Source of the DNA: a virus
Virus record (IMG/VR): IMGVR_UViG_3300009164_003447
Coordinates: 1-40,546 of that record
Reading direction: 5' to 3' (one strand)
DNA length: 40,546 bases
Position 1 is the stretch's first letter. Every line of letters begins with the position of its first letter. A model generated the notes under the pieces. It was not told the DNA's origin, did no database searches, and was given only the letters and a program-made list of their open reading frames with translations. Shown here piece by piece: positions 7,851-36,658 of this stretch. Position numbers and translations under genes: made by a program.

Positions 7851-8855
7851 ATGAATTTTATTGATCAAAAATACATTGGTCTGGTTTCTTCAAGACTGGA
7901 GAAGTTTAAACAAGTTAAAACTGGACTGTATAATTTTAGATGTGTATATTGTGGGGATTCACAAAAGAATAAAAGCAAGACAAGAGGATATATTTACGGT
8001 TATAAGAACGATCATAATTACAAGTGTCACAATTGTGGAGTATCTAAATCTTTTACTAATTTTCTAAAAGATATTGACACCACTCTTTATGATCAATATA
8101 TTATGGAGAGATATAAGAATGGTTCTACTGGCAAGGGATCTAATACACCGGAACCAAAATTCACCTTTGAAAAACCAAAATTCACAAAAAAAGCATTTGA
8201 TTTGCCATCCATCGCAGAACTAAATAAAGAACATTCGGCAAGAATTTATTTAGAAAACAGAAAAATTCCTCAAGATTTTTTGAGTCAATTATTTTATTGT
8301 GAAAAGTTCAAACAATGGACGAATGAACAAAAAAAAACTTTTGAATCTACAAAATACGATGAACCTAGAATCATCATTCCACTTATCAACAATGGAGAAA
8401 TATTTGGATTTCAGGGTCGTAGTTTAAGTAAGAAACCAAAAGTAAAATACATCACAATTATTCTAGATGAAGATCAACCAAAAATTTATGGATTAAACAG
8501 AATTGATTGGAACAAAACTGTTTATGTTGTAGAAGGTCCATTTGATAGTATGTTTATTGAAAATTCAATTGCGATGGTTGGTGCGGATATTGATAAAATG
8601 TTTTTCATAGCAAATTTTGAAACCAATTTTGTTATGGTCTATGATAATGAAAAAAGAAATAAAGAGATGGTTGCACGATTAGAAAAAAGCATTGAGATGA
8701 AATTTCCTGTGGTAATTTGGCCAAAAGATTTAAAGGAAAAAGACATTAATGATATTGTATTATCTGGACAAGACGTGGAATCTATGCTAAAATTAAATAC
8801 TTACCAAGGATTAGAAGCAAAACTTAAATTTACCAACTGGAAAAAAGTAGCATGA
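7851..8855 (+). CDS. 61: DNA primase (T4 gp61-like)
   Basis: This 334-residue protein is close to T4 gp61 in length. The zinc-binding module has Cys31-x2-Cys34 (CVYCG) and Cys59-x2-Cys62 (CHNCG). The TOPRIM core shows the catalytic Glu in VVEGPFDSMF (Glu228, Asp232) and the acidic VMVYDNE (Asp265). Gp61 makes RNA primers at the replication fork with the gp41 helicase. No helicase gene is in the window. It overlaps nrdA by 4 bases (ATGA), so primase and nucleotide reduction genes are cotranscribed. Confidence 0.9.
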   Translation: MNFIDQKYIGLVSSRLEKFKQVKTGLYNFRCVYCGDSQKNKSKTRGYIYGYKNDHNYKCHNCGVSKSFTNFLKDIDTTLYDQYIMERYKNGSTGKGSNTPEPKFTFEKPKFTKKAFDLPSIAELNKEHSARIYLENRKIPQDFLSQLFYCEKFKQWTNEQKKTFESTKYDEPRIIIPLINNGEIFGFQGRSLSKKPKVKYITIILDEDQPKIYGLNRIDWNKTVYVVEGPFDSMFIENSIAMVGADIDKMFFIANFETNFVMVYDNEKRNKEMVARLEKSIEMKFPVVIWPKDLKEKDINDIVLSGQDVESMLKLNTYQGLEAKLKFTNWKKVA

Positions 8856-10567
8856 GTAACGGCATAAACGTAGTTAAGAGAGATGGGTCTATTGAAAGTT
8901 TAGACCTCAATAAACTTCATTTGATGGTTGAAGAGTCTTGTAAAGACCTTGCTGGAGTGTCTGCATCTCAAGTTGAGATGACTTCTGGAATTCAATTTTA
9001 TGATGGAATTTCAACAAGAGAAGTTCAAGAAATTTTGATCAAATCTGCAGCAGATTTGATTGATTTAGAAAATCCAAATTATCAGTTTGTGGCAGCAAGA
9101 CTTCTTTTGTTCTCTGTTCGTAAATCACTTTACGGAAAAATTAAAGATCATCCTACATTCTTTGAACATATTAATAAATGTGTAGATGCAAGTGTTTATG
9201 ATAAGGAAATCTTATCATATTATACGGAAGAAGAACTAAATCGTCTTGGTGATTATATCAAACATAAACGGGATTATCTCTTCACCTATGCCGGTCTTCG
9301 TCAAGTTGTTGATAAATATCTTGTTCAAGATAGAAGCACCGGACAAGTATATGAAACTCCACAGTTCATGTATATGATGATTGCTGCAACAAAATTCTCC
9401 CAATATCCAAAAGAAACTCGTCTTTCATATGTAAAGAGGTACTATGACGCAATATCAAAACACAAAATCAACATCCCAACACCAATTATGGGAGGAGTTA
9501 GAACTCCTTTACGACAATTTGCAAGTTGTGTTCTTGTTGATTCTGATGATACCCTCGATAGCATCGGTCACTCTGATTTGGCTATTTACAAGTACGTTGC
9601 TCAAAGGGCTGGCATCGGTATCAATGCGGGCAGAATACGTGGTATCAATTCTAAAATCAGAGGCGGAGAAGTACAACACACAGGTGTTATTCCCTTCCTT
9701 AAAAAGTTTGAAGCAACTGTCAGAAGTTGCACTCAAAACGGTATCAGAGGTGGTTCAGCAACTGTTCACTTTCCAATCTGGCACCAAGAAATAGAAGACA
9801 TTATTGTTCTGAAAAATAATAAGGGAACTGAAGATAATCGTGTTCGTAAGTTAGACTATTCTATTCAAATCAGCAAAATCTTCTATGAACGATTTATCCG
9901 CAACGAAGAAATCACACTCTTCTCTCCCCACGATGTTCCTGGTCTTTATGATGCTTTTGGCACTGATGGATTTGACGACCTTTATGTGGGTTATGAACGA
10001 AATGAATCTATTCCAAGAAAAACTATCGGTGCTCAAGAACTCTTTCTGGACCTTCTAAAAGAACGTGCAGAAACAGGTCGTATTTATATTATGAATATTG
10101 ACCATTGTAATTCTCATAGTTCTTTTCTTGATAAGGTTTCAATGAGTAACCTTTGTGTTGCTGGTGATACAAAGATTAAAATCAAATACCCAAAAGCAAT
10201 ATATGATGATATTGGAGAGATTTATGATTGGAAAGTTTATGAAGAAGAAATTGAGATTGGAGATCTGGATGAATATATTAGTTCCAGAGAAATTAGAGTT
10301 ATGTCTTATAAAGTAAGTGATAATGATCCTTGTGAGGATGTTCCTCAAATAGAAGTTCTTTCTTATAATACAGAAACTAATCAACAAGAATGGGCACCTA
10401 TTACAGCATTTGCCGAAACATCACCAAAAGCAAAGGTAATGAGAATTACTGATGAAGAAAGTGGTAAGAGTATTGTAGTGACACCAGAGCATAAAGTATT
10501 CACAAAAAATCGTGGATATGTAATGGCAAAAGACCTAACCGAAACTGATGAGTTGGCAATCAACTAA
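8852..10567 (+). CDS. nrdA: NrdA N-terminal half fused to split-intein N fragment
   Basis: This is the N-part of the class Ia ribonucleotide reductase large subunit, 571 residues. Residues 1-434 are NrdA: an ATP-cone at the N-terminus (VVKRDGSIESLDLNK), the first redox cysteine in QFASCVLVDSDD (Cys226, E. coli Cys225), and the run MNIDHCNSHSSF up to Ser-Asn-Leu. At residue 435 the sequence switches to an intein: block A CVAGDTKI and block B VVTPEHKVF (the T-x-x-H motif), ending in DELAIN and a true stop. The rest of NrdA lies past an endonuclease gene, at 11295-12389. The polypeptide should be inactive alone, since the radical cysteine is on the other half. The start ATG overlaps the primase stop. 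Confidence 0.93.
   Translation: MSNGINVVKRDGSIESLDLNKLHLMVEESCKDLAGVSASQVEMTSGIQFYDGISTREVQEILIKSAADLIDLENPNYQFVAARLLLFSVRKSLYGKIKDHPTFFEHINKCVDASVYDKEILSYYTEEELNRLGDYIKHKRDYLFTYAGLRQVVDKYLVQDRSTGQVYETPQFMYMMIAATKFSQYPKETRLSYVKRYYDAISKHKINIPTPIMGGVRTPLRQFASCVLVDSDDTLDSIGHSDLAIYKYVAQRAGIGINAGRIRGINSKIRGGEVQHTGVIPFLKKFEATVRSCTQNGIRGGSATVHFPIWHQEIEDIIVLKNNKGTEDNRVRKLDYSIQISKIFYERFIRNEEITLFSPHDVPGLYDAFGTDGFDDLYVGYERNESIPRKTIGAQELFLDLLKERAETGRIYIMNIDHCNSHSSFLDKVSMSNLCVAGDTKIKIKYPKAIYDDIGEIYDWKVYEEEIEIGDLDEYISSREIRVMSYKVSDNDPCEDVPQIEVLSYNTETNQQEWAPITAFAETSPKAKVMRITDEESGKSIVVTPEHKVFTKNRGYVMAKDLTETDELAIN
10154..10564 (+). other. Split intein, N fragment (137 residues)
   Basis: It runs from Cys1 (TGT at 10154) to the stop. 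Block A is CVAGDTKI, and block B has the Thr-Pro-Glu-His that assists the first acyl shift. There is no in-frame endonuclease domain. The split falls where bifunctional inteins carry their endonuclease. Confidence 0.9.
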
Positions 10568-10595
10568 TATGATAGGAAGTGTAATTTCTATATTT

Positions 10596-10603
10596 TATAA
10601 ATA
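10596..10603 (+). promoter_or_regulatory. Late promoter TATAAATA inside hairpin loop
   Basis: A perfect octamer lies 23 bases before the ATG at 10627, inside the loop of the 14-bp inverted repeat. Confidence 0.78.
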
Positions 10604-10608
10604 GTTAT

Positions 10609-10622
10609 GAGATTACACTTCC
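10609..10622 (+). repeat. 14-bp copy of the nrdA sequence following the intein site
   Basis: GAGATTACACTTCC here is identical to 11400-11413, which encodes Glu-Ile-Thr-Leu-Pro directly after the C-extein Cys-Gln. It lies just downstream of the late promoter and includes most of the right hairpin arm. It may be an operator that imitates the endonuclease target. Confidence 0.8.
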
Positions 10623-10626
10623 TATA

Positions 10627-11301
10627 ATGAAAACATATATTGTTTATAAAATTACCAATAAGAATAACGGAAAATCTTACATAGGAAAAACTGAATACTC
10701 ATTAGAACATCGTTGGAATCGTCATTTATCATCGGCAAGAAATGGTTCTAAATTTAGATTTCATTCTGCTATTAGAAAATATGGTGAAGATTGTTGGGAC
10801 TTATCTGTGATTGAAACCTATCTGACCGAAGATGAAAACTTTATTAACGAAAAAGAAACTCACTTTATTAAACTCTTTGAAAGTGATACTAAAAAAGGTT
10901 ATAATGCTACTTCAGGTGGAACTGGTGGATGGATGCTTCCCAAATGCTCTCCGGAGGTTCAGGAAGAATGGAGAAACAATATTTCTATAAGAACTACTGG
11001 TTCCAACAATCCAAACCATTCTGGATATACTGATGAGCAACTTATAGAAATAGGTGTAAAGTTTGTTAAAAAATTTGGATTTATTGGTGGTAGAACGAGA
11101 ATAGTTGATTTTGCCAGTAATGAATTGAATATAAAGTTTCCAAAACATTTTTCTAAAAATAGATTTGGAGGAAACCATCAAAACTTTTATAAATCTATTG
11201 AAGAACAGACTGGATTGGTGTATAATTCATATTATAGAGACGAAACTCAAAGAACACTTGCTAAACAACTTTTAGAACAAAACAGGAGAAAAAAATGCTA
11301 A
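10627..11301 (+). CDS. GIY-YIG homing endonuclease inside fractured nrdA
   Basis: This 224-residue protein has a nuclease domain at residues 1-97: IVY (5-7) and YIG (18-20), the conserved Arg in LEHRWNRHL (Arg29), a Glu-rich NEKETHF (Glu75/77), and GYNATSGGTGG where I-TevI-like enzymes have a conserved Asn. The C-terminal half (from about 120) carries basic segments (GGRTRIVDF, KHFSKNRFGG), probably for DNA binding. It has its own promoter and hairpin and overlaps the next gene by 7 bases (ATGCTAA), which couples translation. The expected role is to cut nrdA alleles lacking this insertion and drive its spread. Split inteins with free-standing endonucleases between the halves are known from marine metagenomes. 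Confidence 0.9.
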   Translation: MKTYIVYKITNKNNGKSYIGKTEYSLEHRWNRHLSSARNGSKFRFHSAIRKYGEDCWDLSVIETYLTEDENFINEKETHFIKLFESDTKKGYNATSGGTGGWMLPKCSPEVQEEWRNNISIRTTGSNNPNHSGYTDEQLIEIGVKFVKKFGFIGGRTRIVDFASNELNIKFPKHFSKNRFGGNHQNFYKSIEEQTGLVYNSYYRDETQRTLAKQLLEQNRRKKC

Positions 11302-11393
11302 AGATTGAATATCTTGAAGAAGAAATTCCAGTTTATGATATTACTGTAGAAGGAACACACAATTTCTTTGCAAATAATATTCTGGTCCATAAT
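11295..11393 (+). other. Split intein, C fragment (33 residues)
   Basis: It runs from ATG to the terminal Asn before Cys34. Blocks F and G are intact, with the penultimate His and final Asn present. The length is in the usual range for naturally split C-inteins. Confidence 0.9.
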
Positions 11394-12389
11394 TGCCAAG
11401 AGATTACACTTCCCACCAAACCTCTTCAACATATTGATGATCCAGATGGAGAGATTGCTCTCTGTATTCTTTCTGCAATCAATGTGGGTAAAGTTAAGGA
11501 TGATAGTGAATTTGAAGAACTTTGTGATTTGGCTGTTCGTGGGTTGGAAGAACTCATTGATTATCAGCAATATCCAATAGTTGCTGCTGAAAAATCAACA
11601 AAAGCACGTAGATCTCTTGGTGTTGGATTTATTGGTTTGGCACATTATCTTGCTAAACTTGGTTTTGATTATGATTCTCAAGAAGCATGGGATGCAGTTC
11701 ATAGTCTTTCTGAATCATTCCAATATTTCTTACTCAAATCTTCTAATCAGATTGCCAAAGAAAAAGGTGCTTGTGAATATTTCAATCGCACAAAGTATTC
11801 CCAAGGAATTCTTCCAATTGATACATACAAAAAGGATGTTGATGAACTGTCAAATCCAACTCTTCAACACGATTGGGAAACACTTAGAGAAGATATAAAA
11901 CTGTATGGTCTTAGACACTCCACACTATCCGCACAGATGCCCTCTGAGAGCAGTTCAGTCGTCTCTAATGCAACTAATGGAATTGAACCCCCTAGAGGTT
12001 ATTTGTCCGTCAAACAGTCTAAAAAAGGTCCTCTCAAGCAAATTGTTCCACAGTTTCAAAGTCTTAAAAACAATTATACGCTTCTTTGGGATATGCCTAG
12101 CAATCGTGGTTATATTAATATTGTTGCAGTTATGCAAAAATTCTTTGATCAAGCGATTTCTGGAAACTGGTCATATAATCCGGAGAATTATCCCGATAAT
12201 GAAGTTCCTGTTAGCGTAATGGCACAAGATATGCTCACTTGCTTTAAGTATGGGCACAAAACAGCATATTATCAGAATACTTATGATGGTAAGTCCGATG
12301 AAATCAAAGAAGAAAAATCCAACCTTGACAGTTTAGTGCAGGACATACTAAACTCTAATGAAGATGACTGTGAGAGTTGTAAAATTTGA
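11295..12389 (+). CDS. nrdA: Split-intein C fragment fused to NrdA C-terminal half
   Basis: This 364-residue protein has the intein C part as residues 1-33: block F VYDITVEGTHNFFAN and block G ILVHN, with the His-Asn that cyclises. Residue 34 is Cys, the +1 nucleophile and also the thiyl-radical cysteine of NrdA (E. coli Cys439, in the S-N-L-C-x-E motif). The remaining NrdA shows EIALCILSAIN (second redox Cys), the MPSESSSVVSNATNG motif with EPPRG, and a C-terminal CESCKI redox tail. The spliced product would be 434 plus 331 = 765 residues, close to E. coli NrdA (761). All residues needed for splicing are present, so a functional enzyme is likely. Confidence 0.93.
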   Translation: MLKIEYLEEEIPVYDITVEGTHNFFANNILVHNCQEITLPTKPLQHIDDPDGEIALCILSAINVGKVKDDSEFEELCDLAVRGLEELIDYQQYPIVAAEKSTKARRSLGVGFIGLAHYLAKLGFDYDSQEAWDAVHSLSESFQYFLLKSSNQIAKEKGACEYFNRTKYSQGILPIDTYKKDVDELSNPTLQHDWETLREDIKLYGLRHSTLSAQMPSESSSVVSNATNGIEPPRGYLSVKQSKKGPLKQIVPQFQSLKNNYTLLWDMPSNRGYINIVAVMQKFFDQAISGNWSYNPENYPDNEVPVSVMAQDMLTCFKYGHKTAYYQNTYDGKSDEIKEEKSNLDSLVQDILNSNEDDCESCKI

Positions 12390-17340: not shown

Positions 17341-17348
17341 CATAAATA
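17341..17348 (+). promoter_or_regulatory. Late-promoter-like CATAAATA
   Basis: This NATAAATA match lies 26 bases before the ATG at 17375. It is preceded by the near-palindrome GTCGGTCCGAC. Confidence 0.6.
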
Positions 17349-17374: not shown

Positions 17375-17884
17375 ATGATCGGACCCAAAAAGAAACCACA
17401 AGATTTCGGATTTAAGAAAGGAGATACTCATCTCATTGTTAATGATATTACAGAAAAAGTAAAAGCATATAATTTTGATGGAAAACTTCTTTGGGAACTT
17501 CCTGCATTAGCAAGAGGACAGGGGAGTGATTATGAGTTTAAATTTTCAAATACAGATACTCCTCCTGGTCTTTACAAAATTGGAACTATCTACAAGGATT
17601 ATGAGAAAGATTCCACGCCAGAATATTCTAGGGATGTGATGGCATTTGGGTGGTATAGTTTTGATTTGGTTGAACTTGAGAATCAGGAGGCAAAGAATGG
17701 CCGTGCTGGAATCATGATTCATGGTGGTGGTTCTGCCTGCGGGTGGCCAGGCGCCTGGGCAGCAATGCAGAAACTCTTCTCAACACATGGTTGTGTAAGA
17801 ATGCATAATCAACACCTTAAAGATAATCTTCTTCCTTTGACGAAAAAGGGGACAGTCTTTGTTTCTGTATTTCAAGAGGGATGA
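17375..17884 (+). CDS. L,D-transpeptidase (YkuD-fold) domain protein
   Basis: This 169-residue protein carries the YkuD signature MIHGGG (His116), then after 22 residues STHGCVRMHN (His138, catalytic Cys140, Arg142). Before this, a beta-rich stretch with PPGLYKIGTIY matches the P-x-G-x-Y strand of the family. L,D-transpeptidases form or exchange 3-3 peptide cross-links in peptidoglycan. There is no signal peptide or SH3 domain, so it would act after release or as a virion or lysis protein. It overlaps the lysozyme gene by 4 bases (ATGA), which points to joint work on the cell wall. Confidence 0.85.
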   Translation: MIGPKKKPQDFGFKKGDTHLIVNDITEKVKAYNFDGKLLWELPALARGQGSDYEFKFSNTDTPPGLYKIGTIYKDYEKDSTPEYSRDVMAFGWYSFDLVELENQEAKNGRAGIMIHGGGSACGWPGAWAAMQKLFSTHGCVRMHNQHLKDNLLPLTKKGTVFVSVFQEG

Positions 17885-18363
17885 TTACTTCAATTCCACA
17901 ACCAGGTATTAAATTAATCAAAGAATTTGAAGGATGTCATCTTAAAGCATATCCGGATCCTCTGTCAGGTAAACTTCCAATCACTATAGGATGGGGGTCT
18001 ACTCGCAGGAAGAATGGATCTCCATTTAAACTTGACGACACCATTACTCAAAAGGAAGCAGATGAATTATTGATTGCTCAATGCGAGAGTCAGTTCTTAC
18101 CAGCACTTTCTAAAATCCCATATTGGAGAGAAATGAATGACAATCAACGCGGAGCACTACTATCCTTTGCTTACAATCTCGGTGCTGGATTTTACGGTGG
18201 AAGTGGGTTTAATAGCATCACTCTCAACCTTCGTGAGAAAAATTGGACGGCAATCCCAAAAACATTAGAACTCTATAGAAATCCTGGAAGTAATGTTGAG
18301 ACGGGATTGCTCCGTAGAAGGATTGCTGAAGGGAAATTATGGAAAAAAATAATCATTCCTTAG
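17881..18363 (+). CDS. GH24 lysozyme (endolysin)
   Basis: This 160-residue protein is the usual length of phage muramidases. The catalytic motif is EGCHLKAYPD (Glu17 with Asp26), followed by PITIGWGST (Thr35), and then NQRGALLSFAYNLG, a conserved GH24 helix. It hydrolyses the MurNAc-GlcNAc bond of peptidoglycan. No signal peptide or membrane anchor is visible, so release would need a holin, which is not evident here. It is translationally coupled to the L,D-transpeptidase gene. Its last bases overlap a tiny gene on the opposite strand. Confidence 0.9.
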   Translation: MITSIPQPGIKLIKEFEGCHLKAYPDPLSGKLPITIGWGSTRRKNGSPFKLDDTITQKEADELLIAQCESQFLPALSKIPYWREMNDNQRGALLSFAYNLGAGFYGGSGFNSITLNLREKNWTAIPKTLELYRNPGSNVETGLLRRRIAEGKLWKKIIIP

Positions 18364-18463
18364 TCTCCAGATATGCCATTCGTAGTATGTAGTAAATACA
18401 CCACATAGTAAAAATTAAACCTGCTCCAAGAATTATACATACTCCCCAGGGAAACTCATTCAT
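18353..18463 (-). CDS. 36-residue membrane peptide
   Basis: The start is at 18463, one base after the stop of the gene upstream on this strand. The peptide begins MNEFPWGVCIILGAGLIF and continues TMWCIYYILRMAYLETKE. One hydrophobic helix covers residues 8-27. The ribosome site AAGGAAGA lies inside the end of the upstream gene. Its 3' end overlaps the lysozyme gene by 11 bases. The family is not recognised. Confidence 0.55.
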   Translation of the reverse strand: MNEFPWGVCIILGAGLIFTMWCIYYILRMAYLETKE

Positions 18464-18464
18464 T

Positions 18465-18656
18465 TCATCTTCCTTCTTCTTTGTGTATCCAAACTTTTAA
18501 ATTTTTAACGTATTTTCTTAATATCTGTGCTTGCTCTTCGTGCCAGTAATCTCCTGTTTCTAGGTGAATACGTGTATGATTATCTATTGCTTGTAGCATT
18601 TGGTGAATGGGTTTGTTCCATTTTTCTCTATGTGGAGTATCAAACTCTCTTGCCAT
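18465..18656 (-). CDS. Small conserved-looking protein, unknown function
   Basis: This 63-residue protein begins MAREFDTPHREKWNKPIHQM, is helical, rich in His and Trp, and ends WIHKEEGR. A GAGGT ribosome site sits just before the ATG. It lies between two even smaller genes on the same strand, making a three-gene cassette opposite to the lysis genes. There is no known motif. Confidence 0.6.
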   Translation of the reverse strand: MAREFDTPHREKWNKPIHQMLQAIDNHTRIHLETGDYWHEEQAQILRKYVKNLKVWIHKEEGR

Positions 18657-18662
18657 AATACC

Positions 18663-18776
18663 TCATTTCTTTTTGCCTCCATTTTTAGCTTTTTTAATAG
18701 TTGCATTACCTTGATTTTGTTTGGATTGCTTTCCACCAGCAGAACCTTTTTTACCTTTATTTGCAGACTTACTCAT
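18663..18776 (-). CDS. 37-residue Lys/Gly-rich basic peptide
   Basis: ATG at 18776 opens MSKSANKGKKGSAGGKQSKQ, continuing with repeated Lys, Asn and Gly and ending GGKKK. It is strongly basic with no hydrophobic segment, so binding to nucleic acid or to an acidic partner is plausible. It is the first gene after the minus-strand late promoter and its stop is 6 bases before the next ATG. Confidence 0.5.
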   Translation of the reverse strand: MSKSANKGKKGSAGGKQSKQNQGNATIKKAKNGGKKK

Positions 18777-18797
18777 GAGGGCATTTCTATTTGTAAA

Positions 18798-18805
18798 TAT
18801 TTATA
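18798..18805 (-). promoter_or_regulatory. Late promoter TATAAATA (minus strand)
   Basis: Perfect octamer on the minus strand, 21 bases before the ATG at 18776. It supports real expression of the three small minus-strand genes. Confidence 0.7.
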
Positions 18806-18830
18806 CTTTTTATGGAAGAATTCCAAAAGA

Positions 18831-18859
18831 TTGACAAATCCTAAATATTCTGATATTAT
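18831..18859 (+). promoter_or_regulatory. Sigma-70 promoter
   Basis: TTGACA (18831-18836), 17-base spacer, TATTAT (18854-18859), with TGA before the -10 box. It faces away from the minus-strand late promoter and drives the structured leader and the RlpA-like gene. Confidence 0.8.
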
Positions 18860-18865
18860 GTTGAA

Positions 18866-18965
18866 ACCCAAACACATTGGGTCATATCATGAGATTTTGA
18901 TGTGAAACTTAGAGCCGTGGGCAATGCCTCCCGAGAGGGTTGGAACTTCTCCTTTGCCTATACGG
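18866..18965 (+). ncRNA. Structured 5' leader, candidate cis-regulatory RNA
   Basis: About 100 bases between the promoter and the coding region hold three successive helices. ACCCAA pairs with TTGGGT. CATATCA pairs with TGATGTG. A long CCGTGGGCAA pairs with TTGCCT-AT-ACGG and encloses a CCTC-CCGA-GAGG hairpin. The last helix closes one base before a possible ATG at 18966. I do not recognise a known riboswitch class. Translation or termination control is an inference. Confidence 0.5.
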
Positions 18966-18986
18966 ATGTCGAATTCTATTAAACTA

Positions 18987-19358
18987 ATGCTTTTCAAAAA
19001 AACAATTCAAACCCTTTCGGTCGTTGCTCTGAGTCTTGGTGCTCTTGCCCCAATTCCCTCTCAAGCGGCGACCTGTTCTTATGCTTCACATTATGGGATT
19101 GGTGACGGTTACGATGGTCAAAGAACTGCTAATGGCGAACGGTTCAATGCTTATGGTAACTCAGCCGCACATCGTGATCTTCCATTTGGCACTAGATTGA
19201 GAGTAACTAATGAATCAAATGGAAAATCTGTTGTTATACGAATCAATGATCGTGGTCCATATGTAAGTGGTAGGAGTCTTGATCTTTCTTATGGTGCTTT
19301 CTCAACGATTGCATCACCAAGTAGGGGAGAGATTAGGGTTTGTTATTCTAGATTGTAA
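18987..19358 (+). CDS. RlpA-like double-psi beta-barrel protein, secreted
   Basis: I chose ATG 18987, giving 123 residues; ATG 18966 would add 7 and abuts the leader helix. A classic signal peptide (MLFKKTIQTLSVVALSLGAL then APIPSQA) is followed by the RlpA core: SYASHYG, RTANGERFN, AHRDLPFGTRLRV and INDRGPYVSGRSLDLS. RlpA-type domains bind or cleave glycan strands lacking stem peptides. Two cysteines (30 and 119) could form a disulfide. It would act in the periplasm, beyond the lysozyme and L,D-transpeptidase encoded just upstream. Unlike them it has an early-type promoter, so it may act before lysis. Confidence 0.85.
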   Translation: MLFKKTIQTLSVVALSLGALAPIPSQAATCSYASHYGIGDGYDGQRTANGERFNAYGNSAAHRDLPFGTRLRVTNESNGKSVVIRINDRGPYVSGRSLDLSYGAFSTIASPSRGEIRVCYSRL

Positions 19359-19360
19359 TT

Positions 19361-19389
19361 GATAAATAGGGGAGAGTTCATTCTCTCCC
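19361..19389 (+). terminator. Terminator hairpin with late-promoter-like GATAAATA
   Basis: GGGAGAG (19370-19376) pairs with CTCTCCC (19383-19389), followed by TTTA. GATAAATA (19361-19368) directly precedes the hairpin and may serve the gene at 19393. Confidence 0.6.
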
Positions 19390-19392
19390 TTT

Positions 19393-19821
19393 ATGTTTAA
19401 TTTTAATTTTGGAAATAAAAAACCAGATATTAAACAATATGCAATCATAGGAATTATCTTAAGTTCTGTGATTGCAACTCTTACACAATGTACTGGAATT
19501 CAAGAAACATCCTTATGGGATGTATTTGATGAGGTGCAACGTAAGTTTTTCCCTCAAACAATCTTGAATGATTTCATCATCAAAGATCCCGAAAAATTGG
19601 ATCGTAGGGTGAAGAGAGATGTTGATTTGGCAATTGCTGAGTATGAAAGATTGACAGGAGATGATGGAAAGATTAGGATGCCTAAACCACGATATTCAGA
19701 GAAACCACCAGACGGGTCTTATGTCCAATCAGTTTTGGGTGGTGAAATGAGATTGTGTGCTCCTTGGGTAAACGATTGCCCCTTTACAGACCAGAATAAT
19801 GCGGATGTAACTCAGCGGTAG
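19393..19821 (+). CDS. Membrane-anchored protein, unknown function, 3' end inside tRNA
   Basis: This 142-residue protein has a short basic start (MFNFNFGNKKPDIKQYAI), then one hydrophobic segment (IIGIILSSVIATLTQC), so it is probably an N-terminally anchored periplasmic protein. The rest is charged and carries two Cys near the end (LCAPWVNDCPF). No family is recognised. The last six codons and the stop lie within the tRNA-Gly gene, an overlap of 21 bases. The ATG directly follows a hairpin, with no clear ribosome site. Confidence 0.6.
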   Translation: MFNFNFGNKKPDIKQYAIIGIILSSVIATLTQCTGIQETSLWDVFDEVQRKFFPQTILNDFIIKDPEKLDRRVKRDVDLAIAEYERLTGDDGKIRMPKPRYSEKPPDGSYVQSVLGGEMRLCAPWVNDCPFTDQNNADVTQR

Positions 19822-19928: not shown

Positions 19929-20816
19929 ATGAAATTTAAATCAATTTTTGCTGGTGCCGTTATTGCCTCTGGAATGGTTGCACCTGCTCTTGCGACTCCA
20001 AACGGGCAGTTCTCTGATGTTTCTCCAACAAATTGGGCATATCAGGCAATTACCAATCTAAATGCTCGTTATGGTTGCCTTGCTGGTTATCCAAATGGTA
20101 CTCTAAAACCATCCCAGTCTGCTACTCGTGCTGAACTAGTTGCTCTGACAAATGCTTGTCTGGATCGTATTTCTGAGTTTTCTAGTGCTGAAGATGCCCG
20201 CACTGCTTCTGCTCTTCGTGCTCAATTCTCCAAAGAACTTGCAGTTACTAATGCTCGTCTGAGTGTATTGGAAGTTGCTTCTGCTCGTAAGGCACAAGGA
20301 GTTGGTCAATATGTTGGTGTTGGCGTTCTTCTAAATCAACAAGGTGTAAGTGGTAATGGTTATGGTGCTAATCGTACCGTTTCTGGTGCTACCGTTCAGG
20401 CACGTTTCCCTGTTGCTACTGCTTGGGGTAATGAAGTCTCCGTTCGTCCTTATGCTAACTTTGTTGGCAGTCCTTCCGGTCAGATTGGATCTGCTGGTGG
20501 TGCTCTTGCCACTTATGATTATTCCATTTCAAGCAAAACTCTTGCTGATGGAACTAAAGTAAGTCGTGCAAATGTTTATGGTGGTGTTGGTTATCAAGTT
20601 CCTTTCGTAAATAACACTACTTCAAACTATCAGTCTGCTGTTGGTTCACAAGGTCAAGTTGTTCTTGCTCTTGGTGTTGAAGGTCGTATTACCAATTCTT
20701 TGGTTGGTTTTGCCGATGTTAAGTTCCCTACCACCAATGCTGCAAATAGTTATGGAGTTACTGGAGGTTCTTATAGTCCAGTGTTCACAACTGGTCTTGG
20801 TATCAAATTTAACTGA
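19929..20816 (+). CDS. SLH-domain porin-like outer membrane protein
   Basis: This 295-residue protein has a signal peptide (MKFKSIFAGAVIASGMVAPA, then LATP), followed by an S-layer homology domain at about 27-75: FSDVSPTNWAYQAITNL, GCLAGYPNGTLKPSQSATRAE. A helical linker with LRAQFSKELAVTNARLSVLE precedes a series of alternating Gly/aromatic beta strands ending in the outer-membrane signature GLGIKFN. Cyanobacterial porins of the Som type have this SLH-linker-barrel order, but are usually much longer. The role in the phage is unknown; it may alter the host envelope or be carried as a host-derived gene. It has a late promoter and a strong terminator. Confidence 0.82.
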   Translation: MKFKSIFAGAVIASGMVAPALATPNGQFSDVSPTNWAYQAITNLNARYGCLAGYPNGTLKPSQSATRAELVALTNACLDRISEFSSAEDARTASALRAQFSKELAVTNARLSVLEVASARKAQGVGQYVGVGVLLNQQGVSGNGYGANRTVSGATVQARFPVATAWGNEVSVRPYANFVGSPSGQIGSAGGALATYDYSISSKTLADGTKVSRANVYGGVGYQVPFVNNTTSNYQSAVGSQGQVVLALGVEGRITNSLVGFADVKFPTTNAANSYGVTGGSYSPVFTTGLGIKFN

Positions 20817-20893: not shown

Positions 20894-21328
20894 ATGGAAA
20901 CTTTATTTAAATCTTTGAGTGATGCTCAAGCATCACTTTTTGTTTTATTTCAAAAGACGTGGATTTACCATTGGAATGTTGTTGGACCAGACTTTCAACA
21001 ACTTCATACACTCTTTGGTGGGCAGTATGAGACTATGTTTGAAGAGATTGATACCCTCACCGAACATATGAGGTATTTGGGAATGAAACCAGTCAGCACT
21101 CTCACAAGAGCAGTTGAAGTATCTCAAATTTCAGAAGCAGATAGTTCAATTGGTGCTATGGAAATGGTTTCCCAACTACGTGATGATAATAAGAAACTCA
21201 TTGAAATGCTTACTGTAATATCAGAAGAAGCAGATGACCAAAAGCAATACGCAACATCAAATTTAGTTCAAAGTTTATGTGAAACTCACGGTAAATTTGT
21301 TTGGCAATTAAGAAGTATTTTAGAATAA
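20894..21328 (+). CDS. Dps-like ferritin family protein
   Basis: This 144-residue protein carries the Dps core YHWNVVGPDFQQLH, then EEIDTLTEHMRYLG. The four ferroxidase ligands His26, His38, Asp53 and Glu57 are spaced 12, 15 and 4 residues apart, exactly as in E. coli Dps (51, 63, 78, 82). Dps proteins form hollow dodecamers that oxidise and store iron and can protect DNA from peroxide. It lacks the Lys-rich N-terminal tail of E. coli Dps that binds DNA, so iron storage is the more likely job. The late promoter suggests it acts late in infection. Confidence 0.85.
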   Translation: METLFKSLSDAQASLFVLFQKTWIYHWNVVGPDFQQLHTLFGGQYETMFEEIDTLTEHMRYLGMKPVSTLTRAVEVSQISEADSSIGAMEMVSQLRDDNKKLIEMLTVISEEADDQKQYATSNLVQSLCETHGKFVWQLRSILE

Positions 21329-23050: not shown

Positions 23051-23551
23051 ATGAAAATTGGTTTTAATTGTAGTTCATTTGATTTGTTTCACGCTGGGCA
23101 CGTTACTATGCTTAAAATGGAAAAAGAATTATGCGATTACTTAAAAGTTGCACTTCAAGTTGATCCGACCGTAGATCGTCCTGGCATTAAAAATAAACCA
23201 GTACAATCTGCTTACGAACGTTATGTTCAACTTCAAGGATGCAAGTATGTTGATGAAATCCTTGTTTATGAAACAGAAGAAGATCTTCTTAATTTAATTC
23301 AATCCCAAACAATTCATATAAGATTTTTGAGTGAAGAATATAAAGATAGAGATTTTACTGGTAAGCAATATTGTATTGATAATGGTATAGAATTATTCTT
23401 TCATTTAAGAAGGCACAAATATTCTTCAACTGAAATTAGAACTAGAGTTCATCATCTTGAAGAACAAAAAAGAATAAAAAAATTAGAAGAAAATGTAATA
23501 GAACAATATTCCCCAGAAATTTTAGAAAAATATTCTTTTAAAGATAATTAA
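23051..23551 (+). CDS. Cytidylyltransferase-family protein (TagD/HldE-C-like)
   Basis: This 166-residue protein starts with MKIGFNCSSFDLFHAGHVTM, giving the HxGH motif (His14, His17), and contains SAYERYVQLQGCKYVDEI, as in glycerol-3-phosphate cytidylyltransferase. The usual C-terminal ISTS-T-x-I motif is reflected in YSSTEIRTRV. It activates a sugar or polyol phosphate with a nucleotide. It opens the 22-gene sugar cluster and would pair with the PfkB kinase at 26748. The substrate is unknown. A basic helical tail (HHLEEQKRIKKLEENV) is extra compared with TagD. Confidence 0.82.
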   Translation: MKIGFNCSSFDLFHAGHVTMLKMEKELCDYLKVALQVDPTVDRPGIKNKPVQSAYERYVQLQGCKYVDEILVYETEEDLLNLIQSQTIHIRFLSEEYKDRDFTGKQYCIDNGIELFFHLRRHKYSSTEIRTRVHHLEEQKRIKKLEENVIEQYSPEILEKYSFKDN

Positions 23552-23553
23552 CT

Positions 23554-24474
23554 ATGACAATTTTAGTGACTGGTGGGTGTGGATTTATTGGCAGTAATTT
23601 TATTCACCATTTAAAAAAGAGAACAAGTGAAAAAATCATTTGTATTGATAAAATGACTTATGCTGCTGATTATGGAAATATTTCAAATTTAGATATTGAA
23701 TTATATCCACTTGATATTAATAATTCGGATTATGTATTTAAAGAAAATAAAATTAAAACCGTCTATCATTTTGCTGCGGAAAGTCACGTAGATAATTCAA
23801 TTAAAAGTTGCTCCGAATTTATCAATACTAATATTAATGGAACAGTCAATCTTTTGAATCTTTCTATGAAATATAATGTTGAGAAGTTTATTCATATTTC
23901 TACGGATGAAGTTTATGGTTCAATTGAACACGGTAAATTTACGGAGACAACAACATATAATCCAAGAAATCCATATTCAGCATCAAAAGCTGCAAGTGAT
24001 CATTTTGTGATGGCTTACCATAATACTTACGGTCTTCCTGCTATCATTACAAATTGTTCAAATAACTATGGACCAAGACAGCACGAAGAAAAATTAATTC
24101 CAAAGACAATTAAAAATTTAATGATGGGGAATAAAGTTCCTATCTATGGTGATGGGCAACAAATTCGTGATTGGTTATATGTTCAAGACCATTGTGAGGC
24201 AATTTTAGTTGTGGCAGAAAAAGGAAAGTTTGGTGAAAAATATAATATTGGTGGAGAATGTGAAGTCAAAAATCTTGATTTGATAAAAAATATTCTTAAT
24301 ATTATGAAAAAAGACGAAGATATGATAGAATATGTGAAGGACCGTCCAGGGCACGACCGTAGATATTCAACTGATATTACTAAAATACAAACTGAACTTG
24401 GTTGGTCTCCTAGATTTAATTTAGAACAAGGATTGGAAAAAACCATTGAATGGTATAAAAGTCATTTACAATAA
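23554..24474 (+). CDS. rmlB: dTDP-glucose 4,6-dehydratase
   Basis: This 306-residue extended short-chain dehydrogenase has the N-terminal TGGCGFIGSNFIHHL NAD-binding motif, HFAAESHVDNSI, the catalytic STDEVYGS with the Asp-Glu pair, and PYSASKAASDHF with Tyr and Lys. Further motifs NCSNNYGPRQ and GDGQQIRDWLYVQDHC are diagnostic of RmlB. It converts dTDP-glucose to dTDP-4-keto-6-deoxyglucose, the entry to rhamnose-type sugars. RmlA, C and D are not seen in this window, so the supply and later steps may come from the host or neighbouring phage genes. Confidence 0.9.
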   Translation: MTILVTGGCGFIGSNFIHHLKKRTSEKIICIDKMTYAADYGNISNLDIELYPLDINNSDYVFKENKIKTVYHFAAESHVDNSIKSCSEFINTNINGTVNLLNLSMKYNVEKFIHISTDEVYGSIEHGKFTETTTYNPRNPYSASKAASDHFVMAYHNTYGLPAIITNCSNNYGPRQHEEKLIPKTIKNLMMGNKVPIYGDGQQIRDWLYVQDHCEAILVVAEKGKFGEKYNIGGECEVKNLDLIKNILNIMKKDEDMIEYVKDRPGHDRRYSTDITKIQTELGWSPRFNLEQGLEKTIEWYKSHLQ

Positions 24475-24522
24475 AGGCATTTTAAACTAAAATACATAGT
24501 ACATACACTAATAAGTTAATTT

Positions 24523-25569
24523 ATGAGTCAATATAAAAAAACTGCACTTGTTCTTGGTGCGGGTGGCTTTATTGGAAGTCATATGGTAAAACGATTGAGA
24601 TCCGAAGGATATTGGGTCACCGGAGTAGATGTTAAACTCCCAGAATATTCTAAAAGTGAAGCAAATGAATTCATCCTTGGAGATTTGACAAATCAATTAT
24701 TTACTGATAAAGTAATAATGTTTAAAGGATATCAACAAAACTTTTATAAATTTGTCCCATCCAAATACATATCAGCATTTGATGAAATATATCAATTTGC
24801 CGCTGATATGGGAGGTGCTGGATATATTTTTACTGGAGAAAACGATGCTGATGTGATGAACAATTCTTGTTCTATCAATTTGAATATTCTTCGCTCGGTT
24901 AAAAATTTAAATGACAATCTTGGCGTGAATAAAACAAAAATATTTTATTCGTCATCAGCGTGTATGTATCCAGAGCACAATCAATTAGATCCTAATAATC
25001 CAAACTGCCGTGAAGAATCTGCTTATCCCGCTAGCCCAGACTCTGAATATGGATGGGAAAAACTTTTTTCAGAACGTCTTTACTTTGCGTACAATAGGAA
25101 TTATAATATACCTGTGCGTGTATGTCGCTACCATAACATCTTTGGCCCCGAAGGGACCTGGAAAGGCGGAAAAGAAAAATCCCCAGCAGCAATTTGTCGC
25201 AAAGTAGCAGAACTTCCTGATCTTGGTGGATCCATTGAAGTTTGGGGTGATGGGGAGCAAACTCGTTCGTTCCTTTATATCAATGAATGTATTGAAGCGA
25301 CACGAAGATTGATGGAATCTGATTTTATGGGACCAGTCAATATTGGATCTGAAGAGATGGTAACAATCAATCAACTTGTGGATATTACTGCTAAAGTTTC
25401 CAGCAAAACAGTACAGAAAAGATATAAATTGGATGCTCCCCTTGGTGTCCGTGGTCGTAATTCTAATAATGACTTAATTCGTAAAGAACTCGGTTGGGAT
25501 TATAGTATGACTTTAGAAGAGGGTATTACAAAAACTTACAAATGGATTGAGGAACAATTAAATGGTTGA
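24523..25569 (+). CDS. GDP-mannose 3,5-epimerase-like enzyme
   Basis: This 348-residue extended SDR has motifs that match GDP-mannose 3,5-epimerase: VLGAGGFIGSHMVKRL, FAADMGGAGYIFTGE, SSSACMYPEHNQ, YGWEKLFSERLY, and the long signature RYHNIFGPEGTWKGGKEKSP. The last is nearly diagnostic, with the catalytic Tyr and Lys in YGWEK. It would make GDP-L-galactose or GDP-L-gulose. It is preceded by a 48-base gap, the largest in this cluster, and overlaps the next gene by 8 bases. Confidence 0.88.
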   Translation: MSQYKKTALVLGAGGFIGSHMVKRLRSEGYWVTGVDVKLPEYSKSEANEFILGDLTNQLFTDKVIMFKGYQQNFYKFVPSKYISAFDEIYQFAADMGGAGYIFTGENDADVMNNSCSINLNILRSVKNLNDNLGVNKTKIFYSSSACMYPEHNQLDPNNPNCREESAYPASPDSEYGWEKLFSERLYFAYNRNYNIPVRVCRYHNIFGPEGTWKGGKEKSPAAICRKVAELPDLGGSIEVWGDGEQTRSFLYINECIEATRRLMESDFMGPVNIGSEEMVTINQLVDITAKVSSKTVQKRYKLDAPLGVRGRNSNNDLIRKELGWDYSMTLEEGITKTYKWIEEQLNG

Positions 25570-26215
25570 AAATTTTTCTTGGAGTGATAATAGAAGAGAA
25601 GATTGGAGAGATTATGTCCGTTCTTTGGAAAATGATAATATAAGTGAAATTCTTGGAGCAATTCCATCAGGATGGAATGTACCACCAAAAAGTCATAATG
25701 AATTTGTGATTTGGTTGATGAATAGAATTGATCCAAAATTAACTGTAGAACTTGGAGTTGATTGGGGATATTCATCTTTTATGCTTGCTTTGAATACAAA
25801 AAATGAGGTTGTTGGTATTGATTGTTTTGATATTTCAAAACATAGTTTAAGAAAAGATGATGACTATCAATTTGTTATGGACATAAAAGAAAAACTAAAA
25901 CTTGATAACTTAGAAATTATTAAAGGATATTTTGACGATGTAGCAAAAACTTGGAATAAAGAAATCAATCTTCTTCATATTGATGGTCTTCACGATTATA
26001 ATAATTGTAAAAATGATTGCGATACCTGGGCGCCATTTTTGGAAGAAAGAGGTGTAGTATTATTCCACGATACTATTTCAAATCCAGATGGAGTTGGACT
26101 TTTCTTTTCTCAACTTGAACTTCCAAAAGTGAATTTTACCAATTCTTGTGGATTGGGTGTTGCTTCAAATGATGTTAAATTGATTGAAGAAATTAAACAA
26201 GTTTTTAAACTATGA
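25562..26215 (+). CDS. Class I SAM methyltransferase
   Basis: This 217-residue protein carries the SAM motif TVELGVDWGYSSFML (E-x-G-x-x-x-G), VVGIDCFD and the later LLHIDGLHDYNNCKND with RGVVLFHDT. This is the Methyltransf_24 pattern common in polysaccharide clusters. It probably O-methylates a sugar. The start overlaps the previous gene and the stop overlaps the next by 4 bases. Confidence 0.8.
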   Translation: MVENFSWSDNRREDWRDYVRSLENDNISEILGAIPSGWNVPPKSHNEFVIWLMNRIDPKLTVELGVDWGYSSFMLALNTKNEVVGIDCFDISKHSLRKDDDYQFVMDIKEKLKLDNLEIIKGYFDDVAKTWNKEINLLHIDGLHDYNNCKNDCDTWAPFLEERGVVLFHDTISNPDGVGLFFSQLELPKVNFTNSCGLGVASNDVKLIEEIKQVFKL

Positions 26216-26748
26216 TTAAACTTATAATCCTTGATGTGGATGGTGTTCTTACTGATGGCACCAAATATTATGATCATGATGGGAAAGTAGTTCTTAAACT
26301 TTTCTGTGATAAGGATTGGACTGCAATTAAAAGGTTTCGTGCTATTGGAATTCCAGTTGTTTTTATAACTGGCGATCCTTATAATGAGATCATTCTTAAG
26401 AATAGAAATCTCCCTGTTGTAGTGAATCGTGGCGAAGGATTTCATAAAGACAAAGTAAATTATCTTGCAGAAGTTCTTGATGATTACAATTGTCTTGTAG
26501 AAGAAGTTGTTTATCTTGGAGATGATCTTTTTGATTATGGTATAATGAGAGAGGTTGGATATCCTTATTGTGTGTTAAATTCACCAAGAACTCTTCAAGA
26601 CATTTCTGTAGTTCTTCACTGTAATGGTGGAGAAAATGCAGTGATGTGTTTGTTTGAATATCTGGAGGATAGAGAATTGATTCCGGTTGTTCCTTATGAT
26701 GAGGTAATGTCTAAAATTTATGAACTTGACTTGAAGGAAAACTTTTAA
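26212..26748 (+). CDS. HAD phosphatase, KdsC/YrbI-like
   Basis: This 178-residue protein has motif I ILDVDGVLTDG (Asp8, Asp10), motif II FITGD (Thr53), a Lys in GFHKDKVNYLAEVLDD and motif IV YLGDDLFDYGIM (Asp104, Asp105), all as in KdsC-type C0 phosphatases. It would remove phosphate from a sugar phosphate such as an octulosonate or heptose. Unlike KdsC (which ends sooner), it has an extra 45-residue tail. It sits directly before the kinase and nucleotidyltransferase genes, suggesting one route. Confidence 0.85.
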   Translation: MIKLIILDVDGVLTDGTKYYDHDGKVVLKLFCDKDWTAIKRFRAIGIPVVFITGDPYNEIILKNRNLPVVVNRGEGFHKDKVNYLAEVLDDYNCLVEEVVYLGDDLFDYGIMREVGYPYCVLNSPRTLQDISVVLHCNGGENAVMCLFEYLEDRELIPVVPYDEVMSKIYELDLKENF

Positions 26749-27419
26749 TGAAAGACATTTCTCTTTATGGGCATCTGACTATTGATACGATTCTTGACGG
26801 TAATTCTGAAAAGAAAAGTTTAGGATCAATGGCAAATGTTTGGAGATCTTTACTTGAGATTGATTCAACATTAAATATTGGACTTTCTCCAATTGATGTT
26901 GGTCAAGCACTTGTTTATATTGATAAACTTTCAGCACAAAGGTATTCAAAAGCAAATTTAAATCTAGTTCAACACAAAGTAAAAATCTTCGAATCAAAAG
27001 TTCACCATCTAATTTATCTCAATGAAATGTCTATTCATGATTTTATTCCAAAACTGAATGGTATTATCACTGCAGATATATGTTCTGGAAAATCATTGAA
27101 TAAAGATTTACTTAAGGGTGTAGATTATCTTTTTATTTCTGATGAAGATATTGATGGCAATCTTTCAGATTACGTGAATACAATAAAGGGGTATGTGATA
27201 CTTCATAGTTCATCAGGAAGCATTGTATCAAATGGAAAAGATGAGTTTTTCTATAAACTGCCTAAAGATTTAATACTGAAAGGTGTTAATGTTCTTGGTG
27301 CTGGTGATACATTTGCGTCTTGTTTCTTATATAAATTACTAAGGAATGAAGGAAGCATCCACAACTGGATCGAATTTGCTCATTTAAAGACAACTGAAAT
27401 TATTAGGAATTCGATATGA
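26748..27419 (+). CDS. PfkB-family sugar kinase, shortened
   Basis: This 223-residue protein shows the PfkB signatures: an N-terminal YGHLTIDTILDG with SLGSMANVW (substrate loop) and the anion hole and catalytic base VNVLGAGDTFASCF (Gly184-Ala-Gly-Asp187). Ribokinase-type enzymes are usually over 300 residues, so lid strands are trimmed here. Together with the cytidylyltransferase at 23051 it resembles a split HldE (kinase plus nucleotidyltransferase). It shares one base with the preceding stop. Confidence 0.8.
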   Translation: MKDISLYGHLTIDTILDGNSEKKSLGSMANVWRSLLEIDSTLNIGLSPIDVGQALVYIDKLSAQRYSKANLNLVQHKVKIFESKVHHLIYLNEMSIHDFIPKLNGIITADICSGKSLNKDLLKGVDYLFISDEDIDGNLSDYVNTIKGYVILHSSSGSIVSNGKDEFFYKLPKDLILKGVNVLGAGDTFASCFLYKLLRNEGSIHNWIEFAHLKTTEIIRNSI

Positions 27420-28573
27420 AACCAAATATTCTTGTTCCGATGGCGGGACTTGGTAGTAGATTTATTAAAGAAGGATTTAAAGTACCAAAGCAGTTAATTA
27501 ATATCAAAGACAAACATCTAATTGATATTTCGCTTGATTGTTTGAACTATGAAGATTGTAATCTAATCTTCGTGGTTAGGGATGAAACTGTTTATAATTT
27601 TCATATTGATGAACTCCTAAAGAAAAAGTTTGGTGAAGATATCAAGATTGTTATTATTGATAAACTTACTGATGGATCTGTGAGCAGTTGTCTGTATGCA
27701 GAAGAATATATTGATAATGATGCGCCTCTTGTAATTCATACTCTAGATATTGAATTCCGTCCAGTATTTGATCCGCATACTATTAATAACTTGAATGCAG
27801 ATGGACTCCTTTTGACATTTAAATCAAATTCTGCAAATTATAGTTATGCTGATGTTAATGAAGATGGATATGTAAAAAGAACTGCTGAAAAGAAAGCAAT
27901 TAGTTCTAATGCCTGTGTTGGTATCTATGGATTCAAAAAAGGATCCGACTTCTGCAAGTATGCAAAGGAAATGATCGAAAGAGATATTAGAACTAATAAT
28001 GAGTTTTATATTGCACCTTTGTATAATCTTCTTATTGATGATTGTAAGAAAATCGTTACTTCGGATGTAGATAAAATGCATGTATTTGGAACTCCTGATG
28101 AGTTTCATTTCTACAAAGAAAATGTCATTCGTAAGGTTGGTGATAAACCAATTGCTATTTGCTCAGACCATTCTGGATTTGAATCAAAGGAAAAGTTTAA
28201 ACATATTCTAGAAAAACACAATCTTGAGTATATTGATTTTGGAACTATCTTGAATAAGGATTGTGATTATAGTGATTATATTGCACAAGCAGTTAAAGCA
28301 ATTGCTGAGCGTGATTGTGATTATGGATTTGGTTTCTGTAGAACAGGTCAAGGTGTGAATATTTGTGCTAACAAATACAAAGGTATTCGTTCAGCACTTA
28401 TCTATGATGATTTCTCTATGGAGATGGCAATCCGACATAATTGTGCTAACTTTTTTGCAATTCCTGCAAAAGATTATACTATTGAAAAAATGGATAAGTA
28501 TTTGGAAATCTGTTCTACTCATAACTTTGATGGCGGTCGTCATCAGGTTCGTATTCAGGAATTAGAAAAATGA
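27416..28573 (+). CDS. Sugar nucleotidyltransferase fused to RpiB/LacAB-type isomerase
   Basis: This 385-residue protein has two domains. Residues 1 to about 230 are an NTP-transferase (VPMAGLGSRF loop with FKVPKQLI, later LVIHTLDIEF and a substrate segment). Residues 245-385 are an RpiB/LacA/LacB isomerase: IAICSDHSGFE (250-252 SDH), DYSDYI, FGFCRTGQGVNICANK with the catalytic Cys308, and IRHNCANFFAIP (His341, Asn342). RpiB-type enzymes interconvert aldose and ketose phosphates. This fusion order is unusual; joined steps of isomerisation and nucleotide transfer are inferred, and no substrate can be named. Confidence 0.85.
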   Translation: MKPNILVPMAGLGSRFIKEGFKVPKQLINIKDKHLIDISLDCLNYEDCNLIFVVRDETVYNFHIDELLKKKFGEDIKIVIIDKLTDGSVSSCLYAEEYIDNDAPLVIHTLDIEFRPVFDPHTINNLNADGLLLTFKSNSANYSYADVNEDGYVKRTAEKKAISSNACVGIYGFKKGSDFCKYAKEMIERDIRTNNEFYIAPLYNLLIDDCKKIVTSDVDKMHVFGTPDEFHFYKENVIRKVGDKPIAICSDHSGFESKEKFKHILEKHNLEYIDFGTILNKDCDYSDYIAQAVKAIAERDCDYGFGFCRTGQGVNICANKYKGIRSALIYDDFSMEMAIRHNCANFFAIPAKDYTIEKMDKYLEICSTHNFDGGRHQVRIQELEK

Positions 28574-28890
28574 TTCAAGCAAATATTGTTGACTTTAAAG
28601 CAGGATGGTTTGTTGGGGACTTTGAACCATCTATTTTTAAGAATCCATTTTTTGAAGTTGCACACCATTCTCACACAAAAGGTCAACAAACTTTTCCTCA
28701 TTACCATGCAGTCACTAATGAACTTAACTACATTGTAAAAGGTGAACTAATAGTATCTGGAAAGCATTTGAATGCAGGTAATATGTGGATCTATGAACCA
28801 AAGGAAATTTCTGATGTTGAGTTCTTGAGTGATGTTGATCTTATAGTAGTGAGATGGCCGTCTATTCCTTCGGATAAGTATATGGTATGA
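28570..28890 (+). CDS. Cupin-fold protein
   Basis: This 106-residue protein has two His-rich segments, HHSHTKGQQTFPHYHAVTN and ELNYIVKGEL, that fit cupin motif 1 (H-x-H ... E ... G), and GNMWIYEPKEI for motif 2. It could be a sugar 3,4-ketoisomerase, an epimerase or a metal-binding regulator. It overlaps the upstream and downstream genes by 4 bases each. Confidence 0.72.
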   Translation: MIQANIVDFKAGWFVGDFEPSIFKNPFFEVAHHSHTKGQQTFPHYHAVTNELNYIVKGELIVSGKHLNAGNMWIYEPKEISDVEFLSDVDLIVVRWPSIPSDKYMV

Positions 28891-30699: not shown

Positions 30700-30700
30700 C

Positions 30701-36657: not shown

Positions 36658-36658
36658 T

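Follow-up and report, generated by a model that had tools for sequence, protein, structure and literature searches.

A YkuD-fold protein paired with a GH24 lysozyme as a putative second catalytic part of a late cyanophage endolysin

Introduction

YkuD (L,D-transpeptidase) domains are already catalogued in phage endolysins, although rarely: PhaLP holds 10 entries (PMC8310338), an endolysin domain list holds three (PMC5017753), and one gut GH25-YkuD protein is on record (PMC13284279). These lytic proteins combine YkuD with a glycan hydrolase, as does the cyanophage locus described here; unlike them, this locus carries YkuD as a separate gene overlapping its GH24 partner by 4 nt, and the protein belongs to a large cyanophage family in which it appears interchangeable with a C39-type peptidase. 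A literature search of partial coverage returned no paper on a cyanophage YkuD protein.

Among bacterial proteins of this fold, Bd1075, Pgp2 and Csd6 are L,D-carboxypeptidases (PMC8938487, PMC8038945), Bd1075 acting on both cross-linked and free tetrapeptides (PMC8938487), and YkuD-type enzymes with L,D-endopeptidase activity are described in C. difficile (PMC12729407). The type VI secretion effector Tlde1a is a small soluble YkuD-fold protein, like the one studied here, that is used against the wall; it differs in being delivered by a secretion system, and its sequence identity to our protein is low, the latter not being a Tlde1a member.

Results

Setting of the locus

The stretch of DNA analysed as a whole (the window) is a 40.5-kb virus record in which nrdA, nrdB, a SegE-like nuclease gene, GH24, rlpA and phrog_3316 follow one another in an order much like that of S-PM2 and S-CRM01; from this shared gene order, the window is a piece of a T4-like cyanophage genome. 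The features of the lysis region are listed in Table 1.

Table 1. Features of the lysis region, in window coordinates
Feature	Position	Strand	Evidence
Late promoter motif of T4 type, ATAAATA, 33 nt upstream of YkuD	17342..17348	+	
YkuD-fold protein (L,D-transpeptidase catalytic domain), 169 aa	17375..17884	+	PF03734, relatives, fold, dN/dS
GH24 muramidase, 160 aa, no signal peptide	17881..18363	+	PF00959 76.7 bits; nearest solved structures
Sigma-70-like promoter of rlpA, TTGACA-17-TATTAT	18831..18859	+	11/12 matches
RNA leader upstream of rlpA (model R1), folded into three stacked helices	18910..18976	+	79.1 bits, E 1.6e-20 (window sequence among those from which R1 was built); covariation
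RlpA-like protein of double-psi beta-barrel type, 123 aa including a signal peptide	18987..19358	+	PF03330 79.3 bits, TIGR00413 96.2 bits, N-terminal hydrophobic stretch
Terminator-like hairpin after rlpA	19368..19391	+	
phrog_3316 protein, one predicted membrane span	19393..19821	+	PHROGs E 1e-26

Several further features of the window were recorded. The nrdA gene (8852-12389, + strand) is broken in two, the first half ending in an apparent N-terminal intein part and the second opening with an apparent C-terminal one, and a GIY-YIG nuclease gene (10627-11301) sits between the halves; it is a candidate split intein in a fractured gene. Downstream of the lysis region, on the + strand, lie a gene for a phage protein with a signal peptide and an S-layer homology domain, the short rest of which is porin-like (19929-20816; homologues in loci L015, L025, L029 and L049), a Dps/ferritin-like gene (20894-21328), and a long gene run that starts with sugar-nucleotide enzymes (23051-40098).

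The YkuD protein and its family

The PF03734 profile scored 38.5 bits against the YkuD protein, above its gathering cut-off of 23.4, and the catalytic residues His116 and Cys140 are present, the latter within T137-H138-G139-C140, which bears out the earlier note's description of a YkuD-type protein with an intact His-Gly-Cys site. Compared with the motif HXX14-17[S/T]HGCh, both His116 and T137-H-G-C-V are there; the His-to-Thr spacing is 20 residues, where the motif has 15-18, and His138 is variable in relatives. No signal peptide was found in the protein, and searches with it returned no match in PHROGs (E 0.01) or in NCBIfam; the family likewise gave no match to the sequences of solved L,D-transpeptidases, even at E 10. 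Relative to near relatives, dN was 0.02-0.11 and dS 0.55-1.7, values that place the gene under strong purifying selection, and the low dN/dS (~0.04-0.09) argues that it is not a chance reading frame.

Among isolate phages, a YkuD relative was found in only three (B23, S-CBS4 and S-CRM01), in five records. Two scans of viral metagenome contigs confirmed 332 and 420 relatives, of which 80 were kept from each, and 31 YkuD loci from cyanobacterial genomes were taken in. The equivalents of His116 and Cys140 are kept in 116/116 distinct relatives, and at the position preceding Gly-Cys 74 of them have His, 39 Leu and three Tyr.

The AlphaFold model of the YkuD protein has a mean pLDDT of 83.7, falling to ~70 around the active-site loops, and Foldseek matched it to Bd1075 with E 9e-6. 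Leading the fold matches were Bd1075, Pgp2, Csd6 and B. subtilis YkuD, the carboxypeptidases (Z 13.1-12.4) and the YkuD transpeptidase (12.5) being tied. The Cys/His site resembles that of the three carboxypeptidases, which are bacterial shape enzymes; the window protein differs from them in having no sequence match to them, no NTF2 domain, Arg at the Cys+2 position and Met at His-2.

Association with glycan hydrolases

The YkuD gene ends in an ATGA overlap, 4 nt long, with the start of the gene that the earlier note had read as an overlapping GH24 lysozyme, a reading upheld by the PF00959 score; the nearest solved structures are GH24 muramidases and endolysins. The association extends across the family: in 71/85 distinct viral relatives, YkuD either shares a polypeptide with a muramidase or glucosaminidase or lies no more than 3 kb from one, the partners coming from three unrelated glycan-cutting families (GH24, GH19 and GH73). 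Forty-one distinct viral proteins are GH73-YkuD fusions; elsewhere GH24 is adjacent (18 copies), a divergent GH24 is near (5) or GH19 is near (5). The remaining 14 copies have no glycan hydrolase in the stretch covered; three of these contigs carry GH24 at another position. The isolates also differ in arrangement, with a GH19 domain C-terminal to YkuD in a single B23 protein, GH73 ahead of YkuD in S-CBS4, where the fusion is filed as an endolysin in PHROGs, and GH24 ahead of YkuD in S-CRM01, with a frame split inside the lysozyme. At that S-CRM01 locus (L005:3204-4513, g113/g112), the second frame continues into YkuD, and the frame change may be a sequencing error or a real frameshift.

On a tree of 76 sequences, 11 architecture states require at least 18 changes, against a shuffled mean of 48, which indicates that the link between YkuD and glycan hydrolases outlasts reshuffling: partners appear to have been swapped repeatedly while the link itself persisted. 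It is chiefly on this lasting link that we base the view of YkuD as a functional component of the endolysin. An internal start in the GH73-YkuD fusions, which would make free YkuD, was considered and rejected; most fusions retain the junction Met, but only 1/41 has a Shine-Dalgarno-like sequence ahead of it. We also noted that a similar N-terminal stretch of ~50 residues, possibly a wall-binding module, lies before cyanophage GH24, GH19 and C39 domains and in host YkuD proteins (L007:2794-2960, L191, L015, L025, L002).

A C39-type peptidase in the same slot

In seven cyanophages that have a close GH24 and lack YkuD, a C39_2 peptidase is paired with GH24, whether as an immediate neighbour, an overlapping gene or a fusion partner, and in either order: it is directly 5' in S-PM2, DSL-LC02, DSL-LC03, S-SRM01 (4-nt overlap) and S-CAM7, fused in ACG-2014f, and placed after GH24 in S-CREM1. 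Whole-record searches of 15 records found YkuD without C39_2 in eight, C39_2 without YkuD in seven and never both, a count that shows replacement rather than its rate, the two record sets having been picked by similarity to queries and not at random. The C39_2 and GH24 pair (S-PM2, S-SRM01, ACG-2014f) resembles the pair of the window in genome slot, in overlap with or fusion to GH24 and in being built on a cysteine enzyme, whereas the C39_2 fold is papain-like and unrelated to that of YkuD. A C39-type peptidase thus appears to replace YkuD in the slot by GH24 of related cyanophages.

Host copies

GH24-YkuD fusions are encoded in the genomes of Cyanobium, Synechococcus, Aphanothece and Acaryochloris. 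The four such loci examined, from picocyanobacteria and Acaryochloris (L088, L089, L112 and L115), adjoin katG or ilvD, and a prophage origin of these fusions was therefore rejected in favour of a chromosomal one. The surroundings of another locus, L098, are phage-like, with a phage tail hub gene alongside, and the N-terminus of its protein resembles that of an endolysin. A second host type consists of an N-terminal domain and YkuD with no lysozyme. The YkuD domain of the host fusion is 58-61% identical to that of the window and is likewise associated with GH24, to which it is joined; the host protein is longer and has Leu in place of the HGC His. The picocyanobacterial fusion is a possible source of the phage YkuD.

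Promoters and the separate rlpA unit

The earlier note had assigned a late promoter to YkuD and GH24 and an early one to rlpA, and the two elements in Table 1 agree with this. ATAAATA stands 19-43 nt upstream of 10 of the 44 gene starts in the window, where 0.7 would be expected at random positions; its count over the whole window is not above chance, but its placement is. A site similar to the rlpA promoter precedes 45/53 related RNA leaders. The motifs support a real late/early promoter difference between YkuD/GH24 and rlpA.

That rlpA encodes a secreted RlpA-like protein was also correctly anticipated, as indicated by the signal peptide, DPBB_1 (PF03330) scores of 78.7-79.3 bits and a TIGR00413 score above its cut-off of 82.15; PDB matches include PA4485 (1e-19) and a phage hub protein (1e-22). 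The protein consists of the DPBB domain only, with no SPOR domain within its 123 residues, and has AATC, not a canonical lipobox, in place of the lipobox of bacterial RlpA. The start was placed at 18987 (MLFKK...) and not at 18924 because homologues and the signal peptide both begin there. The gene does not adjoin GH24, as had been supposed: ~620 nt with small minus-strand ORFs separate the two, and rlpA has its own promoter. Nor did the proposed single three-enzyme module hold up, for YkuD and GH24 form one unit and RlpA also occurs in phages without YkuD (S-PM2, S-CREM1); rlpA appears to be a transcription unit of its own, encoding an exported enzyme apart from YkuD/GH24.

The phrog_3316 protein is a candidate lysis-related membrane protein, with a homologue directly after YkuD in S-CRM01. 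Its relatives come after YkuD, rlpA or a secreted lysozyme in many cyanophages, and its C-terminus bears LGGEMRLCAPW. The protein gave no match to a holin family, and no holin was identified.

A structured RNA leader before exported wall enzymes

Between the rlpA promoter and rlpA lies an RNA leader of ~65-67 nt that is conserved in other cyanophages. Its covariation is strong: across 42 distinct leaders, 96.8% of cells at the 13 pairs are able to pair (78% after shuffling), and 113 double changes were counted (33 after shuffling); pairing falls to 51-59% when the partner is slid by one base. Rfam 15 gave no match, relaxed threshold included, and a scan of two host genomes with model R1 found no leader. 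The model occurs in single copy before rlpA in S-PM2, S-CRM01 and S-CREM1, and before a secreted Phage_lysozyme2 (PF18013) in S-SRM01, DSL-LC02 and DSL-LC03.

A scan that used only the RNA pattern and ignored the following gene yielded 73 distinct leaders, 54 of which precede Phage_lysozyme2 and 11 rlpA, as judged by profile. By eye, seven of the other eight precede that lysozyme too, there starting at GTG, and one reaches the contig end after MQNFFT. An exported wall enzyme, either RlpA or Phage_lysozyme2, therefore follows 72/73 leaders, the remaining one being cut off. In nearly all cases the start codon lies 11-13 nt past the leader, with a Shine-Dalgarno-like sequence in 1/50. We infer translational control by the leader.

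Discussion

We consider it reasonably probable that the YkuD protein is the second catalytic part of an endolysin, YkuD and GH24 being two polypeptides of one late enzyme. In such a scheme, both proteins, having no signal peptides, would accumulate in the cytoplasm and presumably get to the wall once a holin opens the inner membrane. GH24 would then cleave glycan strands while YkuD attacks peptide stems via Cys140 and His116; the likeliest route is an acyl-enzyme made at the mDAP-D-Ala bond and then released to water (L,D-endo/carboxypeptidase activity), perhaps with amino-acid exchange. The two cuts together may bring a faster collapse of the cyanobacterial wall. In sister phages a C39-type peptidase would do the job of YkuD, and RlpA would be a separate exported enzyme with its early-type promoter and structured RNA leader. 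For the chemistry, in which fold matches and marker residues pull in different directions, our best bet is that the mDAP-D-Ala bond would be hydrolysed, possibly with exchange; both the wall activity and the bond attacked are inferred. Of the earlier proposal of a phage L,D-transpeptidase acting on the wall, the intact Cys/His site and the company of lysozymes stand, and the protein probably acts on peptidoglycan; the module with RlpA does not.

The residues around the active site bear on whether YkuD might instead be a true transpeptidase or exchanger, which would make 3-3 cross-links or swap the terminal D-Ala in the manner of Tlde1a and so alter or weaken the wall without cutting cross-links. 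Arg at Cys+2 is a transpeptidase marker (PMC8938487), and the window protein has Arg142 there, kept in all aligned relatives, rather than the Ala of Csd6 and Pgp2 or the Val of Bd1075. Tlde1a, which is toxic by carboxypeptidase and exchange activity (PMC9638812), is among the fold matches (Z 9.9). However, having a late promoter and lacking a signal peptide, YkuD would not reach the wall before lysis; in 42/116 relatives Leu or Tyr stands in place of the HGC His, and a Tlde1a mutant at this position has greatly reduced cross-linking and retains exchange (PMC9638812); and the swap with a C39-type peptidase favours cutting. We regard this alternative as unlikely. The His-2 position, assigned by motif and not by superposition, is an invariant Met114 in place of the aromatic D-Ala pocket residue of Csd6, Trp158 (PMC10653827). 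This Met is common to DpaA (PMC10653827), whose structure (8ikr) is a fold match, as would suit a DpaA-like amidase that frees proteins from peptidoglycan and loosens the outer membrane at lysis like a spanin. Yet Cys+2 is Ala in DpaA and Arg here, and the partners of YkuD are glycan hydrolases. Cyanobacteria are also not known to tie proteins covalently to peptidoglycan as Lpp does, and such a role seems quite improbable.

Fusion to hydrolases is also what binding domains display, and YkuD could serve to anchor the lysozyme as a wall-binding module with weak catalytic activity or none; against this, its Cys and His are invariant across the relatives, and in the window and many relatives it is separate and unfused and cannot tether the enzyme there, which makes anchoring improbable. 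Some phage wall enzymes are virion proteins, and YkuD might accordingly sit in the particle and open the wall on entry. Its location after nrdA/nrdB with the endolysin speaks against this, as do its relatives, which are endolysin fusions; a tail-protein origin found no support, and the homology to a non-enzymatic tail protein that the earlier note had raised against itself did not turn up. We hold this role to be highly improbable.

Returning to the reading of YkuD as part of an endolysin, we lean towards a picture in which one uncatalogued RNA leader sets the early translation of exported cyanophage wall enzymes (RlpA or a secreted Phage_lysozyme2), and the late endolysin, distinct from these, relies on an enzyme of the L,D-transpeptidase fold that is interchangeable with a C39 peptidase. 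A rare endolysin domain would thereby become a family with hundreds of relatives, in which an L,D-transpeptidase fold is predicted to cut or edit walls at lysis and to be replaceable by a C39 peptidase. The leader offers a testable case of RNA control over cyanophage wall enzymes, and the YkuD/GH24 gene pair a direct assay for how cyanobacterial walls are broken.
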